Of a stretch of DNA of 20,417 nucleotides, positions 7,664 to 20,417 are shown in pieces (position 1 is the first letter of the stretch; every line of letters starts with the position of its first letter). A model generated the notes under the pieces. It ran no database searches. It saw only the letters and a list, made by a program, of their open reading frames with translations, and was not told the origin of the DNA. The DNA is from a virus, in IMG/VR virus record IMGVR_UViG_3300031787_001036, positions 1 through 20,417 of that record; one strand, 5' to 3'. A program made the position numbers and the translations under genes.

Positions 7664-8368
7664 TTATGTAAATTGTGCGTAAAATGTAAACAGGCCCATT
7701 TGTTGTGCTGAGGCAGCACTTATACTGATGGTTGAGTCTGTGGCTGTGTCATTTTGATCCCATAGGAACGTTTTTACATACAACACAGATCCTTGTGTGT
7801 ATTCTTGAACTGTGCCCTGACCATCTGTTGACAATGTTGAACCTCTGGTCAATGTTCCTGTAGTGCCAAATCCATAAAAAGCAAAGCCAATACCTGGTTC
7901 TACAAGATTGCTCAATGACAGAGTTTGATTGGTCACAGTAGTTCCACTGGCCACGTGATTTTGTTCCAAATCACCAATAGTAGTTGATGCTATAGTCCAG
8001 TTTGGTCTATAGAATAACATAAGTTTTCTATGCGCGGTTGCGGCACTGGCTGATTGTCCAGTGATTGTGGTGTTGACATCACCACTGCCTAATACCTTAT
8101 AACTCAGTGTCCATCTGTGTGTTGAACCATTGTAGGTAGTAATGTTGGTAAAGTTCAATGGTGTGGTATTGGTAGTTGTCAGTGTGTTGATACGATCAAA
8201 CAAGAAAGCAATGTCACCTGCCTGTGTGGTTGCGGGAATACTAATGGTGTAAGTGCCACTGGTAGCACTTTCAGTGCTGGTCACATAGGTAAAACTCTTG
8301 TTCACTGAGGCTCCTGCGCCACCTCCGCCCATGTATAATTGACCATGTAATCCAGAAGCAAATGGCAT
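7664..8368 (-). CDS. Fiber-associated structural protein
   Basis: The product has 234 residues starting MPFASGLHGQLYMGGGGAGA, followed by a Thr/Ser-rich beta sandwich (YTISIPATTQAGDIAFLFDR, then RWTLSYKVLGSGDVNTTITG and AHRKLMLFYRPNW). The pattern of 'T-Q-A-G-D-(I/V)-A', 'L-S-Y-K-V' and 'R-P' strands resembles single-domain structural proteins found beside phage fiber genes, possibly a carbohydrate-binding tip or fiber accessory. I cannot assign a family. Its ATG shares one base with the stop of the third fiber gene (TAATG), with AAGGAT upstream, so the two are translationally coupled and probably made in matched amounts. Its stop is followed by the ribosome site of the XhlA-like gene. Confidence 0.85.
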   Translation of the reverse strand: MPFASGLHGQLYMGGGGAGASVNKSFTYVTSTESATSGTYTISIPATTQAGDIAFLFDRINTLTTTNTTPLNFTNITTYNGSTHRWTLSYKVLGSGDVNTTITGQSASAATAHRKLMLFYRPNWTIASTTIGDLEQNHVASGTTVTNQTLSLSNLVEPGIGFAFYGFGTTGTLTRGSTLSTDGQGTVQEYTQGSVLYVKTFLWDQNDTATDSTISISAASAQQMGLFTFYAQFT

Positions 8369-10407
8369 TATGCGTATCCTTTGCTGAGTGTTGCGTAGTA
8401 GGTAGTGCCAATATAACTCACAGTCAGTATGTCAATGGCATTGGCTGCTGTTGACAGTGTTTTACTAGCACCAGCAAACTTCATTGTTGAAGTCAATGTT
8501 CTACTACCTGTGGCATCCTGTGTGATAATAAATGTGATAGTTTGTCCACTTACTGGACTGCTAAATGCTGACAGAGTAAAGTTGCCAGTGGCTGTGATAG
8601 TTTGAACGTTGCCGTTGGCAGCATTTGGCGTCAATGTTGTAGCACCACTGTTGCCTATGGCAAACACAGTATCACGATAATCTACAAGAGTAGGGCTGGT
8701 AATTGTAGCATTAGTGCTTAATACTGCTGAACCTGTGCCCGTGACAGATTCAAATTCACGCATTTCAACCCAACTTGTAGCATCATTAGATCCAGTATTA
8801 GTTACATGAACTCTCATGGCACTACCACTTGGAACAGTTCCTACAAGAGCACTGGTTGAAGTATTAACAGTTGTAGTCTGACCACTGTTATTAACAAAAT
8901 AGAATCCTTCACCAAAACTCATTGTGCTGGTAGAAGGCAGTGTGAAAGTAGTTCCTGACCCACCATAGATATGCTGTATGTAGTTGCTGGCATTAGTCAA
9001 TGTCGCTGTGGCACTATTTGTAGCAGTATATGTGGTCAAATTATCCCACGCATCTCTGGCTGTGGCGGCGTTGGTTCCGCCATTAGCCAATGGTAATGTG
9101 CCTGTGACAGCCGCTGTCAAACTTATTTGACTCCAACTGGCTTGATTTGAGCCGTTTGTGGTCAAAGCATAATTGGCTGTGCCTGCTGTTTGAGGCCAGT
9201 TTACACCATCAAGCACCACATTACCTGTGCCGTTGGGTGTAATTGAAATATTTTGATTAGCACCTTGGTTAATAGTGATATTACCACTGTTACTGCCTGC
9301 GTTGGTGTTCAGCACAAGACTACCACTGCTGTTGGTGGTCAATGTGGCAGTGATGTTGGGATCACCTATGCGAACTGTGTCAGAGTTAAGATACACGTCA
9401 CCAGTGCCTGCGGGTGAAAATTCAAAGTTTCCATTGGCACCAGAATTTATTAAAATTGATCCTGAACTAGTGCCATTATTTGTGCTGATTGTTAAACTGC
9501 CTGTGCCGTTTGTGGTTAACACAGCATTGGTGTTGGCATCACCAATTTGAACAGTATCTGCTACCAATTGAACGTCACCTGTGCCATTGGGTGTGATTGT
9601 GATAGCACCGTTTGTGGTAACGCCTGTGATAGCATCAGTGCTCACAGCACCAATGTGTGTGCCACGAAAGTTTGTGGCCTGTATGTCACCTTGTGTGCCT
9701 GAAAATACTTCACTGGTGTTGGTAGCATCAGGAATAAATGTCAAATAACCTGTTGAGTCATCATAGCCAAAGAATCCCACTTTGGCTGTGGTGCCGTTGT
9801 GCCAACGAAACTCAATGCCTCTATCTTTGTTATCATCTGTGGTAGGAGCAGTGTCGCCACCCAGTGTAAAAATTGGATCATCTACAGTGACAGTAGTTGA
9901 GTTTACAGTTGTGGTTGTTCCATCAACTTGTAGATCACTTGAGATTATGACCTTGCCTGTGCCTGAAGGTGTTAATGTGATATTGGCATTTGCGCCATTG
10001 CCAATAGTAATTGTGGGATCTGGATCATTGCCTTCATTGGTGGTCAATACTAAATTGCCAGTGCCATATGTTGAAATTCGTGCTTCTGAGTTTAAATCAC
10101 CAACACGCAGTGCGTCTGTTATTATGTGAACATCGCCAGTGCCGTTGGGTTCAATTGTGATATTGCCATTACTGGTGCTGACAATTGAGTTGCCGTTAAC
10201 GTCAAGATTGCCGCCAAGTTGTGGTGTTGTGTCTTCTACAACATTGTCAATGCCGCCAGCACCTTCACTGATAGTGACATAGGTGCCATTGCCCTTTTTA
10301 AAGTGTAGTGTGCCGTCTGTGAGATTAAGACCAATTTGGCCTTCTACTGTATCGCCTGACTGCCAAGTGTAGCCAGTTGTGGTTGTTCGTTTATGTCTGA
10401 TTGCCAT
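8368..10407 (-). CDS. Tail fiber protein 3
   Basis: The product has 679 residues. The N-terminus MAIRHKRTTTTGYTWQSGDT is a short attachment-type segment shared in style with fiber 2 (MAIRIKRSSGN). Then comes VVEDTTPQLGGNLDVNG, followed by three copies of a roughly 70-residue repeat: 'ITPNGTGDV.L..DTV.IGD......LTTNGTGSL...TN.G..SG.I.I..GANGNI'. A 'DGVNWP..AGTANYALTTNG' block and a long beta-rich C-terminal domain ending TYYATLSKGYA complete it. These repeats suggest a trimeric beta-helix shaft. The C-terminal domain differs from those of fibers 1 and 2, so receptor specificity probably differs. A GAGGT ribosome site precedes ATG 10407. It is coupled to the 7664-8368 gene. Confidence 0.9.
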   Translation of the reverse strand: MAIRHKRTTTTGYTWQSGDTVEGQIGLNLTDGTLHFKKGNGTYVTISEGAGGIDNVVEDTTPQLGGNLDVNGNSIVSTSNGNITIEPNGTGDVHIITDALRVGDLNSEARISTYGTGNLVLTTNEGNDPDPTITIGNGANANITLTPSGTGKVIISSDLQVDGTTTTVNSTTVTVDDPIFTLGGDTAPTTDDNKDRGIEFRWHNGTTAKVGFFGYDDSTGYLTFIPDATNTSEVFSGTQGDIQATNFRGTHIGAVSTDAITGVTTNGAITITPNGTGDVQLVADTVQIGDANTNAVLTTNGTGSLTISTNNGTSSGSILINSGANGNFEFSPAGTGDVYLNSDTVRIGDPNITATLTTNSSGSLVLNTNAGSNSGNITINQGANQNISITPNGTGNVVLDGVNWPQTAGTANYALTTNGSNQASWSQISLTAAVTGTLPLANGGTNAATARDAWDNLTTYTATNSATATLTNASNYIQHIYGGSGTTFTLPSTSTMSFGEGFYFVNNSGQTTTVNTSTSALVGTVPSGSAMRVHVTNTGSNDATSWVEMREFESVTGTGSAVLSTNATITSPTLVDYRDTVFAIGNSGATTLTPNAANGNVQTITATGNFTLSAFSSPVSGQTITFIITQDATGSRTLTSTMKFAGASKTLSTAANAIDILTVSYIGTTYYATLSKGYA

Positions 10408-10435
10408 AGAGTTACCTCATTAAATTGATTAGGCT

Positions 10436-10452
10436 GGGGGCATTTCACCCCC
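10436..10452. other. GC-rich hairpin between fiber genes 2 and 3
   Basis: GGGGG and CCCCC enclose CATTTCA. On the plus strand a T-rich run (TTGTGTTTTTAT) follows, so by sequence it looks like a terminator for plus-strand, antisense transcripts. On the minus strand no T-tract follows, so fiber transcripts may pass through with only pausing or processing. Confidence 0.6.
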
Positions 10453-10467
10453 TTGTGTTTTTATATA

Positions 10468-12003
10468 TTAAAATGTGCCGTCGTCAACGTGCTGACTGAA
10501 TTCCAGTGCTGAAGCGCCACTGTTGACTTTAACATAGTAACCACCTGCGCCACTGTAACTTGCTGGAACATCAGTTAGGCCAGTGAATACGCTTACGCCA
10601 CTGGTCTGTGCTACCCAACTTAACTGTCCTGAACCATTGGTCTTTAACACATAGTTGGCTGAACCATCGCTGGTAGGCCAGTTAAGGCCATCAAGCACAA
10701 TTTTACCTGTGCCATGTGGAGTAATTGAAATATCAGCATTTGATCCGTTGGCAATTTGAATAACACCACTGTCCAAGGCATTTGGAGCACCTGTAGTAAG
10801 GGCAAGATTCATTGTGCCCATTGAAGTAATGACCTGTGTTGTAGTTCCAGTGACATCACCTAATACCAACATATTTTGAGCCGCAGTTATTGCTCTAGTG
10901 CTTGATGTAAAGTTATTGCTGGAGAATTCAACAGCAAAACTGTGACCACCATCAGTAGCATATTCACCACCAGCACGAGCAAATGTAGACGAGGCAGCGG
11001 CACTGTCACGAACAGCATAAGCAACAGCACTCATATGTCCATCCATGTTGGCCAATACATCTGCTGTAAAATTACGTTGAGCAATTAGGGCATTTGATGC
11101 TGTGCCTGTTGATGCTGTTCTACGAGCCAAGGTAGCACTAGTGCCGTCTTTGTTAAGCACAATTGAACCACTGCCATTAGGAGCAATCACAATGTTGCCA
11201 TTGCTAACTGAAACTATTTCTTGAGAATTAACATCCAATGCGCCACCTAGTTGTGGAGTTGTATCTTGAACTAAATCTGTAATACCTTGAGTGATTGTTG
11301 TGGCAATAGCACCATTGGTAATGGTAATGCCTGTGCCTGCTGAAAAGTGAGCACGAACATCGCTGGCTGAAGGACCTGTGTAGGTAATAACACCTGTGGA
11401 GTTATCATAACTTAATGCGCCATCACCACCTGAATCTGTTACGCTGATGCTTTGACGAGCGCGACTTTGTGTAAAATAAAGATTTGTTGAACCTTCTGTA
11501 ACAGCATCAGTTGATCCTGGACTTGCTGAAATTTCAACATAAGTTGATCCACTCCAGCGATATGTTTTAGCAGTGTCTACTGTAACATAAATTTTACCAC
11601 TTGAACCAGTGGCTGGGAATCCTGCTAGGTTAGCATATTCTTCAACGTCATCTACATAACTAGGCAGTTGACTTGATGGAACTAGTCCTGAACTATCCAA
11701 TGACGCATAACCATTGGCCTGTCCTTTGGCACTTGTTGCTTGAGCACCGCTGACATCAGCAACACCAATTGTAACAGCACCAGTGCGACCAGCAACTGAT
11801 GTTACTGTGTTAACCTGAGCACCTGCTTCAATGCCGTTGACTTTGTCAACAAACTTACGTCCGCCAATTTCACGAACTGTGCCGCCAATCTCACCATAGT
11901 ATAGTGTTCCGCCATTGCTAGAGCCTTCTGCGTAGGCCAACTGACCACTTTCTAATAGTGAGGGCGCGGTATTCCCTGAACTTCTCTTAATTCTAATAGC
12001 CAT
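10468..12003 (-). CDS. Tail fiber protein 2
   Basis: The product has 511 residues. It begins MAIRIKRSSGNTAPSLLESG, a type of N-terminus common in marine phage fibers. This is followed by TSVAGRTGAVTIGVADVSGA and SYVDDVEEYANLAGFPATGS, then KIYVTVDTAKTYRWSGSTYV. A VQDTTPQLGGALDVN block, a repeat region of the type seen in the neighbours, and a DGLNWPTSDGSANYVLKTNG block come next. It ends QHVDDGTF. The ribosome site AAAAGGAGG before ATG 12003 is the best in the window, consistent with high expression. Its last residues (DDGTF) echo the end of fiber 1 (DDGFF). The gene is separated from fiber 3 by a 60-base gap holding a hairpin. Confidence 0.9.
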   Translation of the reverse strand: MAIRIKRSSGNTAPSLLESGQLAYAEGSSNGGTLYYGEIGGTVREIGGRKFVDKVNGIEAGAQVNTVTSVAGRTGAVTIGVADVSGAQATSAKGQANGYASLDSSGLVPSSQLPSYVDDVEEYANLAGFPATGSSGKIYVTVDTAKTYRWSGSTYVEISASPGSTDAVTEGSTNLYFTQSRARQSISVTDSGGDGALSYDNSTGVITYTGPSASDVRAHFSAGTGITITNGAIATTITQGITDLVQDTTPQLGGALDVNSQEIVSVSNGNIVIAPNGSGSIVLNKDGTSATLARRTASTGTASNALIAQRNFTADVLANMDGHMSAVAYAVRDSAAASSTFARAGGEYATDGGHSFAVEFSSNNFTSSTRAITAAQNMLVLGDVTGTTTQVITSMGTMNLALTTGAPNALDSGVIQIANGSNADISITPHGTGKIVLDGLNWPTSDGSANYVLKTNGSGQLSWVAQTSGVSVFTGLTDVPASYSGAGGYYVKVNSGASALEFSQHVDDGTF

Positions 12004-12015
12004 GAGGGCCTCCTT

Positions 12016-14085
12016 TTAAAAAAATCCGTCATCATTGACTGGTTCCCATCCACCATTGCGTGCCGTGTAAAACGCTCCAGTAACGGGTCTATACCAATGT
12101 TGACCTGTGCTTTGAATGTTGGGCTGACTGTCGTTTACCAAAGTAGGATCCTGCTTGTCAGCCCAATCTAGGGAGCCTGATCCGTTTGTTTTTAATACTT
12201 GTCCTGCTGATCCATCTGTGTTGGGATAAGCAATGTTACTTAATTTAACCTTACCTGTGCCATTAGCAGCAATTTTTACGTCAGCATTGGTCTGTGTAGT
12301 AGTAATGTTATAACCATTTACATCTAAATTGCCGCCTAGTTGTGGCGTTGTGTCTTCTACTATATCATTAATACCAGTGCTTAAACCTAGACTGTTAACA
12401 GAGGCCCAAGCAAGTTGTCCTGAGCCATTGGTCTTTAACACATAGTTGGCTGAGCCATCTGCCTGTGGCCAATTTAAGCCATCAAGAACAACATTACCAG
12501 TTCCGTTGGGAGTTATACTGATATTGCCATTGGCACCAAGAGCAATTTGAATACTACCTGAACTGGCACCACTATTAGTGTTTAATGTTAAACTACCATT
12601 GTTTGTAGTGATTAAGGCTGCGACTCCAGCATCACCTAATCTCACAGTGTCAGCATTGAGGCGAACATCGCCAGTGCCATCTGGTGTAATTTCAATGTGA
12701 CTGTTTGCGCTGCCACCTACTGAAATTTGTCCACCGCTACCATTAGCACCACGCAATAGAGCACCACCAGTGCCACTGTTTAATGTTAAATTGCTGCCTG
12801 TGTTGGCACTTGAACCACCTGTAATGACCACAGCACCTGTGCCATTGCTTTGTAATGAAACAGCACCATTAGGAGCACCATCAATTAAAAAATTTGTAGT
12901 AGAGCCTGCGGCTACCCAAAATCCTCTAGTAGTGGTAAATTCAAATCCATAGTCAATGCCATTGACATTCATTTCTGCTAGATCAAGAGTGCCAGGATGT
13001 GTGCCGTTTATTGTGGTTCTATTCTGTGATCTCCACATGGTCATGCCAGCACCAGCAGTAACACGCAGATTACCTGTGCCATTGCTGGTTAAGATAGCAG
13101 TAGTATCAACATCACCAATTCTAACAGTATCAGCATTGAGTTGAATATCTCCTGATCCATTAGGTTCTAAAACAATGTTGCCGTTGGCACCAGCAGCCAC
13201 TGTAATTTTACCACTGTTTAGGCCTTGATTAGTTGACAATTCAATACTGCGACTACCACTGCTGGTCAATTGCGCTGTGCTTTCACCTGTGCCAAATACT
13301 GTGATTTCTGCGTCATTTAATACACGGCCGCCAGGACCTGGACCAAATTCAACATCACCATTGACATCTAGACGTAGTGCTGCCTGACCAGCGTTATTTA
13401 ACGGATCACTTAATAATAAAAGACTTTGACTGCCACGAGCAAAGATAAATCCTGGACCAGTTCCATCGCCAACATTGACAATGCTTTCTAAATTAATTTC
13501 ACCTGTGCCACTGGCTTTGATGTTGACATCAGCATTGCCAGCACTGGTAATTTTGTTGCCGTTGACATCTAAATTGCCACCTAGTTGTGGCGTAGTGTCT
13601 TGAACTAGTTCAGTAAAACTACTGGCACTACTGATAGTAATAGTATTGGCATCTGTGCGAGCAATGGTGACATTTGACCCAGCAGCCAGTTTAACATCAT
13701 CTGTTGATGTGTCACTGCCTGTTAGTCTTAAGTTAGCACCACCAGTGGCAGTTTCTGCTGACAGGGAATATGTGGTGTTGAGATCACTGATATTGGCCCA
13801 GGCCACATCATAGTCAATGACGCCTGTTTTCTTAAGGAATTGCCCAATAGATCCACCTGCTGGTAATCCATTGGCAGCAATGCCGCCACCATCTTGAACA
13901 ATAATGCCATTGTAACTGACAGTTACAGGATATTCTATATTGGTAACACTGAGTTGATTGACCACGGGTGGCGTTATGGTTATACCATTGACCACTTCTT
14001 CTACGGTTACGTTAATGCCTAGGTCATTAACAGTGGCTACAGTGATACCATTTTGAATTTCTTCTATGGTTATGTTGTAGGCCAT
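12016..14085 (-). CDS. Tail fiber protein 1
   Basis: The product has 689 residues. The N-terminus has short tandem units (NITIEEIQNGITVATVND, then NVTVEEVVNGITITPPVV, then VTNIEYPVTVSYNGIIVQDG), different from fibers 2 and 3 and probably the part that docks on the tail. Then comes VQDTTPQLGGNLDVNGNKI, long repeat regions of the 'NGTGD(V/I).L.ADTVR(I/L)GD' type, a DGLNWP..DGSANYVLKTNG block, and a second VEDTTPQLGGNLDVNGYNI. The C-terminal part, YRPVTGAFYTARNGGWEPVN, is followed by DDGFF. It lies 12 bases from fiber 2. The start ATG 14085 follows the upstream stop by one base, with AGGAG in front. Confidence 0.9.
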   Translation of the reverse strand: MAYNITIEEIQNGITVATVNDLGINVTVEEVVNGITITPPVVNQLSVTNIEYPVTVSYNGIIVQDGGGIAANGLPAGGSIGQFLKKTGVIDYDVAWANISDLNTTYSLSAETATGGANLRLTGSDTSTDDVKLAAGSNVTIARTDANTITISSASSFTELVQDTTPQLGGNLDVNGNKITSAGNADVNIKASGTGEINLESIVNVGDGTGPGFIFARGSQSLLLLSDPLNNAGQAALRLDVNGDVEFGPGPGGRVLNDAEITVFGTGESTAQLTSSGSRSIELSTNQGLNSGKITVAAGANGNIVLEPNGSGDIQLNADTVRIGDVDTTAILTSNGTGNLRVTAGAGMTMWRSQNRTTINGTHPGTLDLAEMNVNGIDYGFEFTTTRGFWVAAGSTTNFLIDGAPNGAVSLQSNGTGAVVITGGSSANTGSNLTLNSGTGGALLRGANGSGGQISVGGSANSHIEITPDGTGDVRLNADTVRLGDAGVAALITTNNGSLTLNTNSGASSGSIQIALGANGNISITPNGTGNVVLDGLNWPQADGSANYVLKTNGSGQLAWASVNSLGLSTGINDIVEDTTPQLGGNLDVNGYNITTTQTNADVKIAANGTGKVKLSNIAYPNTDGSAGQVLKTNGSGSLDWADKQDPTLVNDSQPNIQSTGQHWYRPVTGAFYTARNGGWEPVNDDGFF

Positions 14086-14706: not shown

Positions 14707-16119
14707 TTATTCAATGCCTGTAAGATCATTGCGGAACTGTGCTGTGTTATCTGTGGTGTCAAAAACAAAGTATCCCATAAGGTCACCTAATACAGTGGGA
14801 CTTTGACTGTTGCTATCAACGAACACTTTTACACCATCAATAAATCTACCTTTGGTATAGCCTGTGTTGACAAAACTAAATGTGTTAGGCGTAGTTGATT
14901 CTGCTATTGTTCCACCTTCATAGACATCTGCTGTCAGCAACACAGGCTTAATTCCTCTGGTGCCATACCAATTGCCTCTACATTCTAACACACAATATCT
15001 TTCATTGGGATACAGCGTTTTAAATCTAGCAATGTTTAAAAACACAGTTTCAACGGCAGCATCATTGCCGCCAGCACCTTGGTTGTCTCCGCCCCAACTG
15101 ATAATTGCGGACGTTAAATTACTGCCATCAGGCCAATACTCTTGACTGGTAGTATTTGGTGGAGTAGAACCATCTCCTGTCCATCCTAAATATTGATCAA
15201 CAGTTGTTTGTCCTATAGCAGGTTTATAAACGCGGCAACGAATGTCTAGGTCAGTGCCATCTTGATAGGTCCATTTTAACACAGCACTGGATCCATTAAT
15301 TGTAACCAATATACCTGCTTGACTTAATTCATATCTACCTGAAGAACTATTATAGTTAAATGTAAGACCCTGTTGTTTACCTGTGGGAGTAAGATCAAAA
15401 CCTACATTACTAAAAGCATTGTTGGCAGTGACAGCAGTATTGGTAGTTGGACGTAGCCCATTGCTCTTGTCTCTGAGATAGTAGTTAATGTCACTGAAAC
15501 TGTAAACACCATCACTGTATTCCAGTGCTGTGATGCTTAACACAATATTGCCTTCTTCATCGTCTTCTTCATTGACGCTGACAATTCTAAATTTCTTATT
15601 GGTAAAGCCATACATAGGGCTGGTAACATCTATGATATCGCCAGCCTTGATGCCTAGGTAACTGTAGTCAGTGCGGAACTCTATGATCTTGTCTACACGA
15701 CTTTGTTTGAGTTCACGCAGACCCAGCATCTGCGCCTGTATTTGATCATTGATTAGATCTGTGCTTATGTCTAGTGTGTTTAGGGGTTCATTGGCAAAAC
15801 GCTGATTGTCTGGTATCTGTAGAACCACATAGTCTTTTTCATCTCCTAACAATTTATTAGGAAAACTTACTTTGACAGAGTTATAAAGTTCATAGACACC
15901 TGTGCCTGTGATATTGATAGCGCCTAGTATATTGCCGTCGTTAAATGATGCTGTGCTTGACCCAGCACGATTAATAATCACTGCCCACTTGCCTGTGTGT
16001 ATGTCAAAGGTAAACCACACTCCAGCGGCTAGGCTGAGATTTTCTATGTTGGTCCATGCTGGTTGTGTGGTATCAATGACACCATTGATTGTGTAATAGA
16101 TATTGTTGAATGTGGTCAT
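14707..16119 (-). CDS. Tail hub (J-like) C-terminal part
   Basis: The product has 470 residues. It begins MTTFNNIYYTINGVIDTTQP and continues AWTNIENLSLAAGVWFTFDI, HTGKWAVIINRAG and then LYNSVKVSFPNKLLG. Near 154-181 is LGIKAGDIIDVTSPMYGFTN. This is the middle and later part of lambda J-like hub proteins (phage tail protein family PF13550 type), which form the tail tip and host-contact hub. The N-terminal part expected in this family is missing here and is found in the 19390-20160 gene. The remainder, from about residue 235, has a beta-sandwich with LKWTYQDGTDLDIRCRVYKP and SWGGDN, a type often found in phage tip proteins. The start has AAGGA, ten bases after the adhesin stop. Confidence 0.88.
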   Translation of the reverse strand: MTTFNNIYYTINGVIDTTQPAWTNIENLSLAAGVWFTFDIHTGKWAVIINRAGSSTASFNDGNILGAINITGTGVYELYNSVKVSFPNKLLGDEKDYVVLQIPDNQRFANEPLNTLDISTDLINDQIQAQMLGLRELKQSRVDKIIEFRTDYSYLGIKAGDIIDVTSPMYGFTNKKFRIVSVNEEDDEEGNIVLSITALEYSDGVYSFSDINYYLRDKSNGLRPTTNTAVTANNAFSNVGFDLTPTGKQQGLTFNYNSSSGRYELSQAGILVTINGSSAVLKWTYQDGTDLDIRCRVYKPAIGQTTVDQYLGWTGDGSTPPNTTSQEYWPDGSNLTSAIISWGGDNQGAGGNDAAVETVFLNIARFKTLYPNERYCVLECRGNWYGTRGIKPVLLTADVYEGGTIAESTTPNTFSFVNTGYTKGRFIDGVKVFVDSNSQSPTVLGDLMGYFVFDTTDNTAQFRNDLTGIE

Positions 16120-16129
16120 TTTTAAATCC

Positions 16130-19100
16130 TTAACTCATGTTAACCTGTATTAATACTGCGCCATGGCCGCCTGGTTCTCCAATGAACACTGAATCATTAT
16201 TAACTCTACCACTGCCACCTTGTCCTGGATTAGTAGGTCTTCCATAGACGCTGTCATTTTGACTTCTACCTTGTCCACCAGCACAGACAGTAGAATAACC
16301 AAAAGCAAAAACACTTACTCCAGCACCACCGTTTGAAGTTGTAGTAGAACTGCCAGCACCTCCTCCTCCGCCAGGAGCATTTACTGTAGGACTAGGGGCA
16401 ATTATATATGCTGAGGCGCCACTGTTGCTCTGTGGACTACCACTGTTTCCACCATTGCCACTAATACCAGCACCACCACCTCCAGCAGTAAGTCCAAATG
16501 CTGTAGTTGATTGTCCAGCACCACTTATGCCGCCACCTGAACCAATAATTAAAGTTTCATTTGTTCCCATAGTATCAAATATTTGAAATTGGAGGCCACC
16601 GCCACCTCCACCCCCACCTCCGTATCCAGTGTTAGTGCCACTGCCGCCACCTCCACCCCCAATCACATATACTTCAAATGCGTTGGTTCCTACATTAGAG
16701 TAGATAAATTCTTTTTGTGTAAAATTAAATGTAAAATTACCTGGACTTGTGTAACTATATTGGGTTGGCAAAAGATTCTCACTAGTTCCAGCATAGGCAA
16801 TGGTTAAATTCAATGTGATACAGTTTACAGTTTGACTGTTGATGGTCTTTTGTATTCTCACTGTGTAATTTGCTGTGGAAGTGATATTTTTATTAGGAGC
16901 AAATTTTAACTTGCTTAAATTGGCACTGATGCCAGTATCACTTCCGCTGAATACAAAATCACTTTGTCTTATATTTTGATTGTCATAGGTCCAAAAGCCA
17001 TCAGTGGTTTCAAAAATCACATCAATGTTGCTACTGCTCTTGTCTCTGACAATTGGAGGACTGTTTAGATAAAAACTGTTTACACTATTGCCAACATATG
17101 ATCTAGAAATAACCCAATTAACTAAAGCATAGACCACATCCTGTGACACAGTCTGTGTTTCATTTGAAGTAAGATTTGTTGCGGTATAGGTCAGTGTAAA
17201 AGATAATGTGGTAAGCACAGTGGCCTGTAAATTGGCCAATCTATTGTTGACCTGTGCTAGTGTGCCTTCTATGGTCAATACCTTTGTGGTATTGTTAAAA
17301 CTTATAGTGCCGCCAGTGCCAGTGCTGGTAATTTGAGATATGTTAGAACTAATGCTGGGTGTCACAGTTACTCGCATATTGTTAGTGCTCTGTGATCCAC
17401 TGTCTGTAATCTGTGGTGTTCCATAGACTTTAAAATTGTTAATGTCATAGAAACTAGCCTCTACAGGTGTGCTAATAAGATTGACATTTGTAATATTCAT
17501 AGTCACTGACCAGCCTAGACTGCCTGCGCTGGGACCACTCCAACTCACTGTAGCAGTATAATTAACTGCGCCTGTGCTGTAGTTGTTTAGATTAATTGTT
17601 GGACTTTTAATTTGATTCCATACTGTGGCGCCTGTTATCCCATTGATAACATAGATGTTAGCACTGGGATTGGTCACTGAACAACCACTAGGTATAGTTG
17701 GCCAGGTTACAGTTGATCCAGGTGCTTGTGTAAGGTCAATGGTATAAATTGGAGTTGTGGTTCCAAAATCGTTAACACCTATGACATTTATGCCCACAGG
17801 AACACTATGAGTAGCACCTTCTGTAGTATTGATAGATTGATTAGTGGCATTAACTGTGTCAAATGCCACTCTAGGACCATTTAATGGTATAGAATAGTTA
17901 GTCAACTGTTGAACTGAACTGCCACCAAATATCTTACTTTGATTATAGGTAATTGTGGTATTTTCAAATTGACCACTAGTAGGATTAAATGATATTTGAC
18001 TGAACAGGTTATTGACCTGTGTCTTTGTGCCTGTATAAGTCCAAGTTCTACTTGTGGTCGTGCCAGGTGCTGAAAATGTTCCCACACCCACAGGCACAGT
18101 TAATGTAATAGTGTAAGTAGAATCATTGTCTAGGTCTGTGATCTGTGGTGTTGAAGTGGCAAAAATATTGGCCACAACATTGTTAACATAGGTTCTTGTG
18201 ATGTTGATGTTAGAAACTTCATCATGCTGTGTGCCAAAGTTAACTGTTTGTGTTTTGGTCTGTGTTGCGCTCTGTGGATTAATCACAGTATAGTCTAATG
18301 TAAATCCCACAGCAACATCGCCACTAGGAGTTATTGTTATTTTAGTAAGATGATCATTGACCTGTGCTTTGGTTCCTACAATGCTCAATCTCTTTGTGGT
18401 ATTGTTAAATGTCACAGTTCCACCCAATGTGCCTGAACTGGCCATTGTTCTTACCAATACAGAGTTGCTGGGAATAATCTGTAGGAAATATCCACCTGAA
18501 GTTGTTTCAACGTCAGTGATCTGCGGAGCACCTGTGATCAATGTAGCAGTATCTTCATTGTAGGTAAAGGCAGAAACTGGACCTAGATATCTAATTAAAT
18601 TGCTTCTTATCTGCTGAACAGTTTGATCACTGCTGCCATCGCTAATAGCAGTGGCAGTATAGGTAAACGTCATATGGGCATTTATAGCACCATTAGTTAC
18701 CATGGTTATGGAATTTAAATGACTGTTAATCTGCGTGTTAGTGCCTACTATGGTCAATACTTTGGCAGAATCATTCCATACACTGGCTCCACCACTGCCG
18801 TTGGTAGCAAGACTAGCAACATAACTGCCTGTTGAAGGTGACACAGTCACCGTCCAAGCAGCCACATTACCTGCTGATAAATTAGGCACACCTGTGATTA
18901 AGTTTGATCCTGTGTTGAACCAAAATACTGTTGTGGCAGACCATTCATTAACATTTTGAATGTTAGTAGTTATTGACCAACCTGTGCTGGTGCTAAAATA
19001 GTCAATAGTGGCTGTGACAGTGAATGTGCCATTGATAATATCTGGTAAGTTAACAGTGGGACTACGCACCAATGCCCAATCTTCCACAGTTCTTATTCCG

Positions 19101-19393
19101 CTGACAGTATACTGTCCAGCACTGGGATTGGTAATGGTCATGTATGTGGGCAATGTAGGCCAAGACACAGTGGCGCCTGTGATAGCACTGACATTAACAC
19201 GATAACGAACATTGGCATCTTGATAATTAATAATGTCTGTGATTTCTCTAGCCACATATAAACTATAACTTTGTCCTTCAAGCACGTTCTGTGTGCCATT
19301 GCCTAAACTTGTATTAAAAGTCACTGAGGCAGTTCTTGGGTCTGTGAACTCTACTGGTTCAAATCCGTTGTTTAAGTCTTGTAATGAGTTCAT
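16130..19393 (-). CDS. Giant repetitive adhesin with polyglycine tail
   Basis: The product has 1087 residues. It is built from two module types in the order T1-T2-T2-T2-T1-T2-T2. T1 (about 38-150 and 523-640) contains (A/S)TV(S/T)WPT(L/I)P and a GWS(I/V)T..I.NVN strand. T2 (about 165-265, 285-385, 412-500, 655-750, 775-865) shows TPQITD, FNNTTK.L(S/T)I.GT.AQVN and a threonine-rich last strand; the fifth copy is diverged. From about 905 the protein switches to glycine runs (VIGGGGGGSGTNTGYGGGGG), like the polyglycine sandwich of phage adhesins, ending GHGAVLIQVNMS. No signal peptide is present. The first residues MNSLQDLNNG resemble a piece of the hub family. The start overlaps the hub N-part stop (ATGA). 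Confidence 0.92.
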   Translation of the reverse strand: MNSLQDLNNGFEPVEFTDPRTASVTFNTSLGNGTQNVLEGQSYSLYVAREITDIINYQDANVRYRVNVSAITGATVSWPTLPTYMTITNPSAGQYTVSGIRTVEDWALVRSPTVNLPDIINGTFTVTATIDYFSTSTGWSITTNIQNVNEWSATTVFWFNTGSNLITGVPNLSAGNVAAWTVTVSPSTGSYVASLATNGSGGASVWNDSAKVLTIVGTNTQINSHLNSITMVTNGAINAHMTFTYTATAISDGSSDQTVQQIRSNLIRYLGPVSAFTYNEDTATLITGAPQITDVETTSGGYFLQIIPSNSVLVRTMASSGTLGGTVTFNNTTKRLSIVGTKAQVNDHLTKITITPSGDVAVGFTLDYTVINPQSATQTKTQTVNFGTQHDEVSNINITRTYVNNVVANIFATSTPQITDLDNDSTYTITLTVPVGVGTFSAPGTTTSRTWTYTGTKTQVNNLFSQISFNPTSGQFENTTITYNQSKIFGGSSVQQLTNYSIPLNGPRVAFDTVNATNQSINTTEGATHSVPVGINVIGVNDFGTTTPIYTIDLTQAPGSTVTWPTIPSGCSVTNPSANIYVINGITGATVWNQIKSPTINLNNYSTGAVNYTATVSWSGPSAGSLGWSVTMNITNVNLISTPVEASFYDINNFKVYGTPQITDSGSQSTNNMRVTVTPSISSNISQITSTGTGGTISFNNTTKVLTIEGTLAQVNNRLANLQATVLTTLSFTLTYTATNLTSNETQTVSQDVVYALVNWVISRSYVGNSVNSFYLNSPPIVRDKSSSNIDVIFETTDGFWTYDNQNIRQSDFVFSGSDTGISANLSKLKFAPNKNITSTANYTVRIQKTINSQTVNCITLNLTIAYAGTSENLLPTQYSYTSPGNFTFNFTQKEFIYSNVGTNAFEVYVIGGGGGGSGTNTGYGGGGGGGGGLQFQIFDTMGTNETLIIGSGGGISGAGQSTTAFGLTAGGGGAGISGNGGNSGSPQSNSGASAYIIAPSPTVNAPGGGGGAGSSTTTSNGGAGVSVFAFGYSTVCAGGQGRSQNDSVYGRPTNPGQGGSGRVNNDSVFIGEPGGHGAVLIQVNMS

Positions 19394-20160
19394 GATACAG
19401 TAATCCTTGCGGGGTCAATGCCAGCACCATACCAAGCGTTGGTTAGATAATCATAGTAGACGTCTCCTGCCTGTGTCATGGTATTTCTTATTTTAAATTT
19501 AATATCAGCCAAGCCTGTAATACCCTTGTCTTTATTGTAGTCAACACGAACTAGAGCAAATATCATGCCTGGCATTTGATGATTCACAGTCCAACCTGGC
19601 ATAAGATTGGCAGCGTTTGTGGGATTGGTCAATGTATAACCAGTAGGTGGAATAGGCACATTGCTGGCACCACTAAAACAATAAATTTTAACTAGACCAT
19701 CTATTTTAGTGTCTACATTGCTATCTCTGTCCTGTGTGCTAGCGCAGGTTATTCCATCTGCGGCAAATGTGATCTTTTGATCATTCCAATATATTTCATC
19801 AAAGTATAGTCTGCTGAGTGCGCCCTGACCTAGATTTAAATATCCAGTTTGTTCGCATATGGTAAGGCAATACCACATTGTTTGATTTGAGTTAGTCAAC
19901 TGTGCGTCAGTGACAATGCCGCCAAGATAGGCTGTGCCATAAACTACGGGCACTTTATGATTGGGATTGCTGGCAACCTGCGCTCGCACTCCTGGATCAG
20001 GTTGACTGGGTGTTTGTTGTTGTTTAACTATGGCGCTGGTAGCCTTACGCACAGCATAGCCTGCCACTGCGGCTTTGGCTATGGTTGATATGATAGGATT
20101 GCCACTGAATACGCCAACAACGGCAGCACCAAAGCCTATGATTTTCTTAAGCCAACTCAT
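19390..20160 (-). CDS. Tail hub (J-like) N-terminal part
   Basis: The product has 256 residues. It begins MSWLKKIIGFGAAVVGVFSG with a hydrophobic helical segment to about residue 40. Then comes NPNHKVPVVYGTAYLGG at about 65-81 (the 'N..(R/H)KVPVVYGT...GG' strand seen in J-like hubs) and LTICEQTGYLNLG. The last visible part is YYDYLTNAWYGAGIDPARIT. In related hubs a 'DYLTN.(R/W)YGAGI' stretch is followed by more hub sequence, but here a stop comes two residues later. The expected continuation is found in the 14707-16119 gene, after the adhesin. The ATG 20160 overlaps the upstream stop (ATGA) and has GGAG before it. The protein is intact as a gene, not a random truncation. Confidence 0.88.
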   Translation of the reverse strand: MSWLKKIIGFGAAVVGVFSGNPIISTIAKAAVAGYAVRKATSAIVKQQQTPSQPDPGVRAQVASNPNHKVPVVYGTAYLGGIVTDAQLTNSNQTMWYCLTICEQTGYLNLGQGALSRLYFDEIYWNDQKITFAADGITCASTQDRDSNVDTKIDGLVKIYCFSGASNVPIPPTGYTLTNPTNAANLMPGWTVNHQMPGMIFALVRVDYNKDKGITGLADIKFKIRNTMTQAGDVYYDYLTNAWYGAGIDPARITVS

Positions 20161-20417
20161 TGTGGTGCTCCAAAGTTAAAGTAGGCATTGGTCAAATTAG
20201 GCACACGATCAAAACTTAAATCAGTGTAATTAAAATAACGATTGCTGTGTGCTTTAATATCTAGTGGATTGGTTCTGCGTCCTGGCACTTTGCCTTGTAA
20301 GAATCTAACCAATGTTGAACAACTCAGTTCAATGGTATTTGATGCTGATCTATCTTCATTGTCATAGTCTTCTTGTAGACTGTAGTTGTTAATAATACAA
20401 AAGAATCTGCCCACTGG
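20157..20417 (-). CDS. Small tail protein, 5' end beyond window
   Basis: The frame is open to the right edge, so the N-terminus is missing; 86 codons are visible. It reads GRFFCIINNYSLQEDYDNED, then SASNTIELSCSTLVRFLQGK, PGRRTNPLDIKAHSN and a C-terminus SFDRVPNLTNAYFNFGAPQ. By position, directly upstream of a J-like hub, it corresponds to the small tail-tip proteins (lambda L/K/I region) that assemble between the tape measure and the hub. Two cysteines are visible, too few to claim an Fe-S site. No family is recognised. Its stop overlaps the hub start (ATGA), so it is part of the same operon. Confidence 0.75.
   Translation of the reverse strand, partial: PVGRFFCIINNYSLQEDYDNEDRSASNTIELSCSTLVRFLQGKVPGRRTNPLDIKAHSNRYFNYTDLSFDRVPNLTNAYFNFGAPQ

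Follow-up and report, generated by a model that had tools for sequence, protein, structure and literature searches.

In this study, we analysed a stretch of viral DNA of 20,417 bases, hereafter the window, which is the entire linear IMG/VR record IMGVR_UViG_3300031787_001036 and probably a genome fragment. Our data indicate that it encodes a tail hub of the J/pb3 type made in two chains, likely broken at the turn of a β-hairpin between hub domains II and III (hdII and hdIII), and that an adhesin encoded at the break probably docks there non-covalently through a segment of the hub, completing the fold. On the minus strand, the gene order is an upstream tail gene, the hub N chain, the adhesin and the hub C chain. 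The N chain (19390-20160; 256 amino acids, aa), which represents the hdII part, ends in ...DYLTNAWYGAGIDPARITVS, and its stop codon TGA overlaps the ATG of the adhesin gene (16130-19393; 1087 aa) in an ATGA at 19390-19393. The C chain (14707-16119; 470 aa) starts with MTTFNNIYYTINGVIDTTQP and comprises the second hairpin strand, hdIII to hdIV and a C-terminal extension; it is separated from the adhesin gene by TAAGGATTTAAAAATG, a gap of 10 nucleotides (nt) between 16130 and 16119 that contains AAGGA. Shine-Dalgarno (SD)-like AAGGA motifs, read from the DNA, lie on the same strand at 19404-19408, within N-chain codons and 10 nt 5' of the adhesin ATG, and at 16127-16131, 5' of the C-chain ATG. 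An earlier note on this DNA had described three tightly linked open reading frames (ORFs) with separate starts; their coordinates and ends were correct, and the SD statistics reported below agree with the ATGA at 19390 and the 10-base gap with AAGGA on which it relied.

The two short genes correspond to successive parts of one hub protein. J of the Methylophilaceae phage P19250A, a single protein of 1099 aa, matched the N chain (residues 3-240; E=2e-34, 32% identity) and the C chain (residues 276-493; E=3e-27, 28% identity), and within J the two matches are in order and 35 residues apart. About 26 residues of this protein (SLTALNTYSNQTITYTLYSGGTSTMK) lie between the point where the N chain ends and the RFEFNG stretch, which is the YYTING of the C chain; as the earlier note had held, the N product stops at a point beyond which uninterrupted hubs go on, and the C product resumes about 26 residues later. 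Furthermore, the Pelagibacter phages Kolga and HTVC202P carry both halves, in equal order, in a single protein. As a separate observation, the N-type match of Kolga J (L008, 4950-9119) and its DYLTN-type stretch are about 290 residues apart, which marks an insertion at another site.

Profile searches extended these matches to pb3 of phage T5. The C chain matched PF13550 (E=1e-4, with a bit score just under the cut-off), and a profile built from 14 split C parts (A7) matched pb3 at 521-717 (E 1e-10 and 2e-8 with two pb3 sequences). A profile of 18 split N parts (A6) matched pb3 at 249-478, weakly yet in order, and a profile of 22 uninterrupted relatives matched it with E 1e-21, spanning the break. 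In pb3 numbering, the break falls between 478 and 521, past hdII but ahead of hdIII, and in the window hdII to hdIV are not on one polypeptide, given two ORFs, a stop codon, different frames and no slippery site. At the level of sequence comparison, the homology and the order of the two hub halves are established, and the proposal that both products make up one J-like hub stands: they are in order within P19250A J, their profiles match adjoining stretches of pb3, uninterrupted relatives carry both parts in order, and both parts match one family.

The helix and strand without counterpart in either hub chain are encoded at the start of the adhesin gene, and alignments and profiles demonstrate the hub origin of this N-terminus. 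Uninterrupted hubs share the consensus ...YGAxI....IDTASLTALNTYSNQTFTYTD-turn-TQPRFxFNGVIDT; in split hubs, the N chain ends after ...I.. and the C chain begins a few residues ahead of the second strand. The start of the insert proteins, M(N/K)(S/T)LxxLN......(V/I/L)x(F/Y)TDxR, matches the hub pattern xSLxxLNxY...xVxYxD, and MNSLQDLNNG of the window adhesin is equivalent to SLTALNTYS within the 26-residue stretch of P19250A. We assign this hub-derived anchor to adhesin residues 1-20 (MNSLQDLNNGFEPVEFTDPR; 19334-19393, minus strand) from the alignment with uninterrupted hubs, conservation and the AlphaFold model. In adhesin-free two-gene hubs the segment stands at the C-chain start, as in L152 (MNSLTELNNYSALSVAYDDQGTGAQTLADRYQINGVIDT).

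The hub origin of these residues, suspected in the earlier note, was also evident from an ungapped 18-column profile built from uninterrupted hubs alone, with which the N-terminus outscored every other stretch of the protein for 55 of 71 insert genes and ranked among the top three for 63. Mean scores were 6.4 for the inserts versus -24.1 (standard deviation 7.7) for the N-termini of 596 control ORFs, and 54 of the 71 inserts exceeded the control 99th percentile. Moreover, among 55 insert proteins N8 was invariant and M1, L7, D18 and R20 were at least 90% conserved; beyond residue 120, the commonest residue averaged about 0.3 per column. The anchor codons vary synonymously and the conservation is therefore at the protein level. 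The arginine after the TD motif, R20 (52/55 insert proteins), is not typical of uninterrupted hubs.

Predicted structures place the break within the hub fold. The AlphaFold model of an uninterrupted relative, L116 (mean pLDDT 80.6, with residues 1-65 disordered), shows the segment as a helix (255-265) and a strand (269-273), followed by a turn (274-276) and a second strand (277-281); according to this model, it is the β-hairpin turn at the hdII/hdIII junction that the insert replaces. A Foldseek search, made with this uninterrupted relative only, retrieved T5 pb3 (E~1e-22) and lambda J (E~1e-19), and also the hubs of the gene transfer agent (GTA), chi and JBD30. For the window adhesin, residues 1-340 were modelled with a pLDDT of 91, with a helix at 4-9, lower confidence over 1-20 and compact β domains from residue 23.

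Several points weigh against the proposed architecture. The match between the N-part profile and pb3 is weak (E=0.013). The window anchor scores -17.8 with the ungapped profile, and 57 other stretches of the adhesin score as high; the low score is due to a 2-residue deletion between helix and strand, and this copy was placed by the family and by alignment with the relative L006, in which the first eight residues, MNSLQDLN, are identical. When the adhesin is modelled alone, the stretch that should supply the hub strand does not adopt a strand; an absent partner would account for this but is not thereby proven. Lastly, the split cases are all metagenomic, with no cultured split phage and no match in one scan of prokaryote genomes. 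The tblastn searches, for which three N parts and two C parts served as queries in addition to the adhesin, revealed no cultured split phage, and the inspected hubs (P19250A, Kolga, HTVC202P, CRP-823 and DSL-LC06) were all uninterrupted, the C part having matched 155 records, part of which were inspected; the adhesin had no tblastn match in cultured phages.

Alternatively, the adhesin N-terminus might be only a relic of insertion, or reflect a constraint of the gene junction, with the adhesin attached elsewhere on the tail. The segment does sit right at the junction, and the match is poor in some inserts (besides the window copy, L022 at -14.4, L094 at -13.1 and L193 at -14.4), partly through insertions or deletions. 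However, the five conserved anchor positions have been kept despite diverged bodies, codons vary synonymously, and the overlap with the N frame is mostly only 4 nt. Moreover, L201 (3125-6675) and L213 (2751-4390) each carry two tandem insert genes, the shorter encoding about 140 aa, and each of these starts with the anchor motif, even the second gene of each pair, which lies away from the N chain. We consequently regard a relic as quite unlikely. Apart from L164, which is cut at the contig end, no spare anchored genes were found elsewhere in the fetched loci.

The arrangement recurs widely; this recurrence, like the two-gene form without adhesin and the tandem insert genes, goes beyond what the earlier note had described. 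Five scans of viral contigs and a classification script, with the best 80 loci per scan kept, yielded 130 distinct hubs in which both the N and the C part were usable; of these, 62 were split with one or more insert genes, seven were split without an insert (L036, L119, L130, L131, L134, L152 and L154; gap of 59-101 nt) and 61 were uninterrupted, with both halves in order in a single protein; since only the best loci were kept, these counts are not frequencies in nature. The window arrangement was present at 100% in two further contigs, where the adhesin gene was found in L004 and L003, and a more distant relative, L006 (IMGVR_UViG_3300021963_000487), has the same arrangement with 49% (N) and 45% (C) identity and a diverged adhesin. 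The layout is not due to chance, because the same one is found in 62 distinct hubs. A hub broken by accident, whether through assembly error, prophage decay or a recent insertion without function, might be suspected in a window that is a metagenomic contig without cultured representative; with identical copies in two contigs, a relative about 50% identical, and 62 distinct split-with-insert hubs whose frames are open and in which the same hairpin is affected each time, we consider this extremely improbable. An assembly artefact, in particular, was ruled out by recurrence in other contigs. An intron or intein was also rejected, as the 4-nt overlap and the 10-nt gap leave no room, the insert has adhesin domains, and no Pfam splicing domain is present.

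Other irregularities were seen among the relatives. In L096 (9944-11968) and L124 (8078-9970), the C chain is enlarged by about 270 residues after approximately residue 55, which marks a second site of insertion within the hub, and the uninterrupted hub of L042 (2405-4462) has an in-frame insertion (a module of about 60 residues, of TLTVDKINTGTISVGYRLAG type) in the hairpin region where the break of split hubs lies. In two P19250A-like hubs, L040 (6848-8245) and L050 (6851-7924), the C part is itself interrupted by a stop or a change of frame, which sets them apart from the systematic split; these interruptions are possibly sequencing errors.

The chains appear to be translated separately. A GGAG or GAGG core at -18 to -4 was present in 68 of 80 split junctions versus one of 54 homologous places in uninterrupted hubs, where the split junctions include those of the seven two-gene hubs, whose downstream gene is the C chain; in addition, an SD-like motif lies 5' of 62 of 64 C genes. 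The downstream gene was in the -1 frame at 66 of the 80 junctions, in +1 at 14 and in frame at none, and no canonical slippery heptamer was found in the 80 open overlaps. Separate initiation is therefore favoured by the SD cores, the mixed frames and the lack of slippery heptamers. Programmed frameshifting that fuses the three ORFs into one hub-adhesin polypeptide, which the earlier note had named as a possible refutation, gave no signal: the prevailing -1 frame with a 4-nt overlap would suit it, but the +1 junctions and the lack of heptamers would not, the overlap in L006 is only 10 nt, SD cores stand ahead of insert and C genes, and the inserts of L195, L205, L181 and L218 begin 2-17 nt past the N stop. 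In our view, such a fusion is very improbable.

The inserted proteins share their start and differ in their bodies. In the window, the adhesin body (residues 23-899; 16697-19327, minus strand) consists of β domains, of which those within the first 340 residues were modelled as immunoglobulin (Ig)/cadherin-like, with Ig and cadherin tandems as the best Foldseek matches at low TM-scores; it is followed by a C-terminal glycine-rich domain (residues 900-1083; 16145-16696, minus strand) that matched PF21722 Gly_rich_2 with E=9e-7, above the cut-off. A search of solved structures with the adhesin profile gave no match. Residues 493-755 match the L006 adhesin at 3-278 (34%), a region that residues 1-320 also match, which indicates an internal duplication. 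Among the 55 insert proteins, Gly_rich_2 was found in 25, FG-GAP_2 in 10, Laminin_G_3 in five and DUF285 in three; the bodies diverge and carry differing modules, with a median length of 780 aa and up to 1360.

Furthermore, insert-bearing hubs have less C chain beyond the hub core, with a median of 330 aa (n=57) versus 681 aa in nested uninterrupted hubs (n=13; Mann-Whitney p 4e-8) and 743 aa in two-gene hubs (n=5; p 0.009), in tests that ignore relatedness, as if a binding function had moved. It could also be that the chains together form the hub as proposed, with the adhesin acting mainly as a structural collar or plug and not as a receptor binder, since in lambda and the GTA the extra gene at the hub break yields a plug or iris (gpI; PMC10721106). 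We think this unlikely, given the length and great diversity of the insert bodies and the many lectin-like or tail-fibre-type modules that they contain, and given the shortened C-tail, a comparison with related uninterrupted hubs that is not corrected for relatedness.

For the architecture that we prefer, a two-chain hub completed by the adhesin, three proteins would be initiated separately from overlapping or abutting genes, and the adhesin segment would dock between the N and C chains, where it would complete the hub fold. Up to three adhesins could be fixed in this way round a trimeric hub, their bodies displayed outside as exchangeable parts that may bind the host, with a putative role in the opening of the tail tube. 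Such a layout suggests arms that plug into a ring and can be exchanged. In T5, tube opening involves the rotation of hdII and hdIII as a rigid body round the long hdIII helix (PMC10038345), and the hairpin, judging by the order of residues, would adjoin this helix. A more far-reaching idea is that the hairpin acts as a docking socket, in which any adhesin with the 20-residue segment fits one of three positions, so that bodies are freely exchanged, mixed virions are possible where genes are in tandem (L201 and L213), and receptor binding could pass directly to tube opening because the segment just precedes the hdIII helix; this we put forward tentatively, as possible though doubtful.

Regarding its evolution, in a quick IQ-TREE tree 19 uninterrupted hubs nest among split ones, beside all but one of the seven two-gene hubs (support 99), and L036, which has no insert, is the sister of L039, which has one (support 99), so that one extra gain or loss is needed. 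The fewest changes were four when hubs were scored as split or not and five with three states. A topology in which a single branch separates all split hubs from the rest was not rejected (p-AU 0.48), and the direction of evolution is accordingly not proven; a passage from uninterrupted to two-gene to insert-bearing hubs is plausible, being the simplest order and compatible with the data without being proven.

The gene upstream of the N chain (20157-20417, minus strand), of which the 3' part is present and the rest is truncated by the window edge, overlaps the N chain by ATGA and is a candidate hub domain I (hdI) or attachment protein. Its complete copy in L003 (7417-8001) matched phrog_2048 (tail; E=3e-18) and, below the curated cut-off, PF09931 'Baseplate hub protein, N-terminal attachment domain' (E=0.0015). 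Elsewhere in the window, at 8368-14085, three consecutive large genes (689, 511 and 679 aa) share repeats including 'VQDTTPQLGGNLDVNG' and 'ITPNGTGDV', and their products are probable tail-fibre proteins.

If the proposed architecture is correct, these phages possess a tail tip whose receptor-binding protein is a structural piece of the hub, and host-binding modules would be exchanged naturally at a fixed point with the hub left unbroken. The coupling of binding to tube opening would also become testable, with the adhesin-free two-gene form serving for comparison. The split hub is widespread in uncultured aquatic phages and was not found in the cultured phages searched; annotation pipelines will label such hubs truncated, and the pattern described here distinguishes them.

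When compared against known systems, the window hub resembles T5 pb3 (PDB 7zqb and 7zhj) and other single-chain hubs in hdII-hdIV sequence and, as modelled for the uninterrupted relative L116, in predicted fold, with both half profiles in order. However, pb3 is one polypeptide from hdI to hdIV (PMC10038345), whereas the window hub is interrupted between pb3 478 and 521, the site at which the adhesin is encoded. The nearest cultured relative, P19250A J (KX815270), differs in being one protein with a short hairpin loop. In the multi-chain hub of JBD30, gp53 together with the upper baseplate protein gp50 and the tripod protein gp54 provides a likeness with separate receptor-binding proteins (PMC11445458), but gp54 binds the hub C-terminal domain VII and not a core loop, and the available portions of that report describe no hub segment in gp54 (PMC11445458). 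In the open-access full texts that were searched, we found no earlier report of a break inside J with an adhesin that carries the missing piece. Multi-chain hubs as such are known, formed 'by as many as 3 polypeptides as in lambda' (PMC13243795). Indeed, lambda gpL/gpI/gpJ and GTA gp13/gp14/gp15 share with the window a divided hub and an extra gene at the break, and their hdI is encoded separately upstream (PMC10721106, PMC13243795), as the candidate hdI of the window would be; their break lies in the hdII-insertion region, where that of the window hub does not, and gpI is a luminal plug (PMC10721106). In the window, the hdI-like gene directly precedes the N chain with no gene between, the presumed hdI/hdII boundary being a separate break as in lambda, and compared with lambda there is an extra break at hdII/hdIII, inside the equivalent of gpJ, which holds an adhesin with the missing hub segment.

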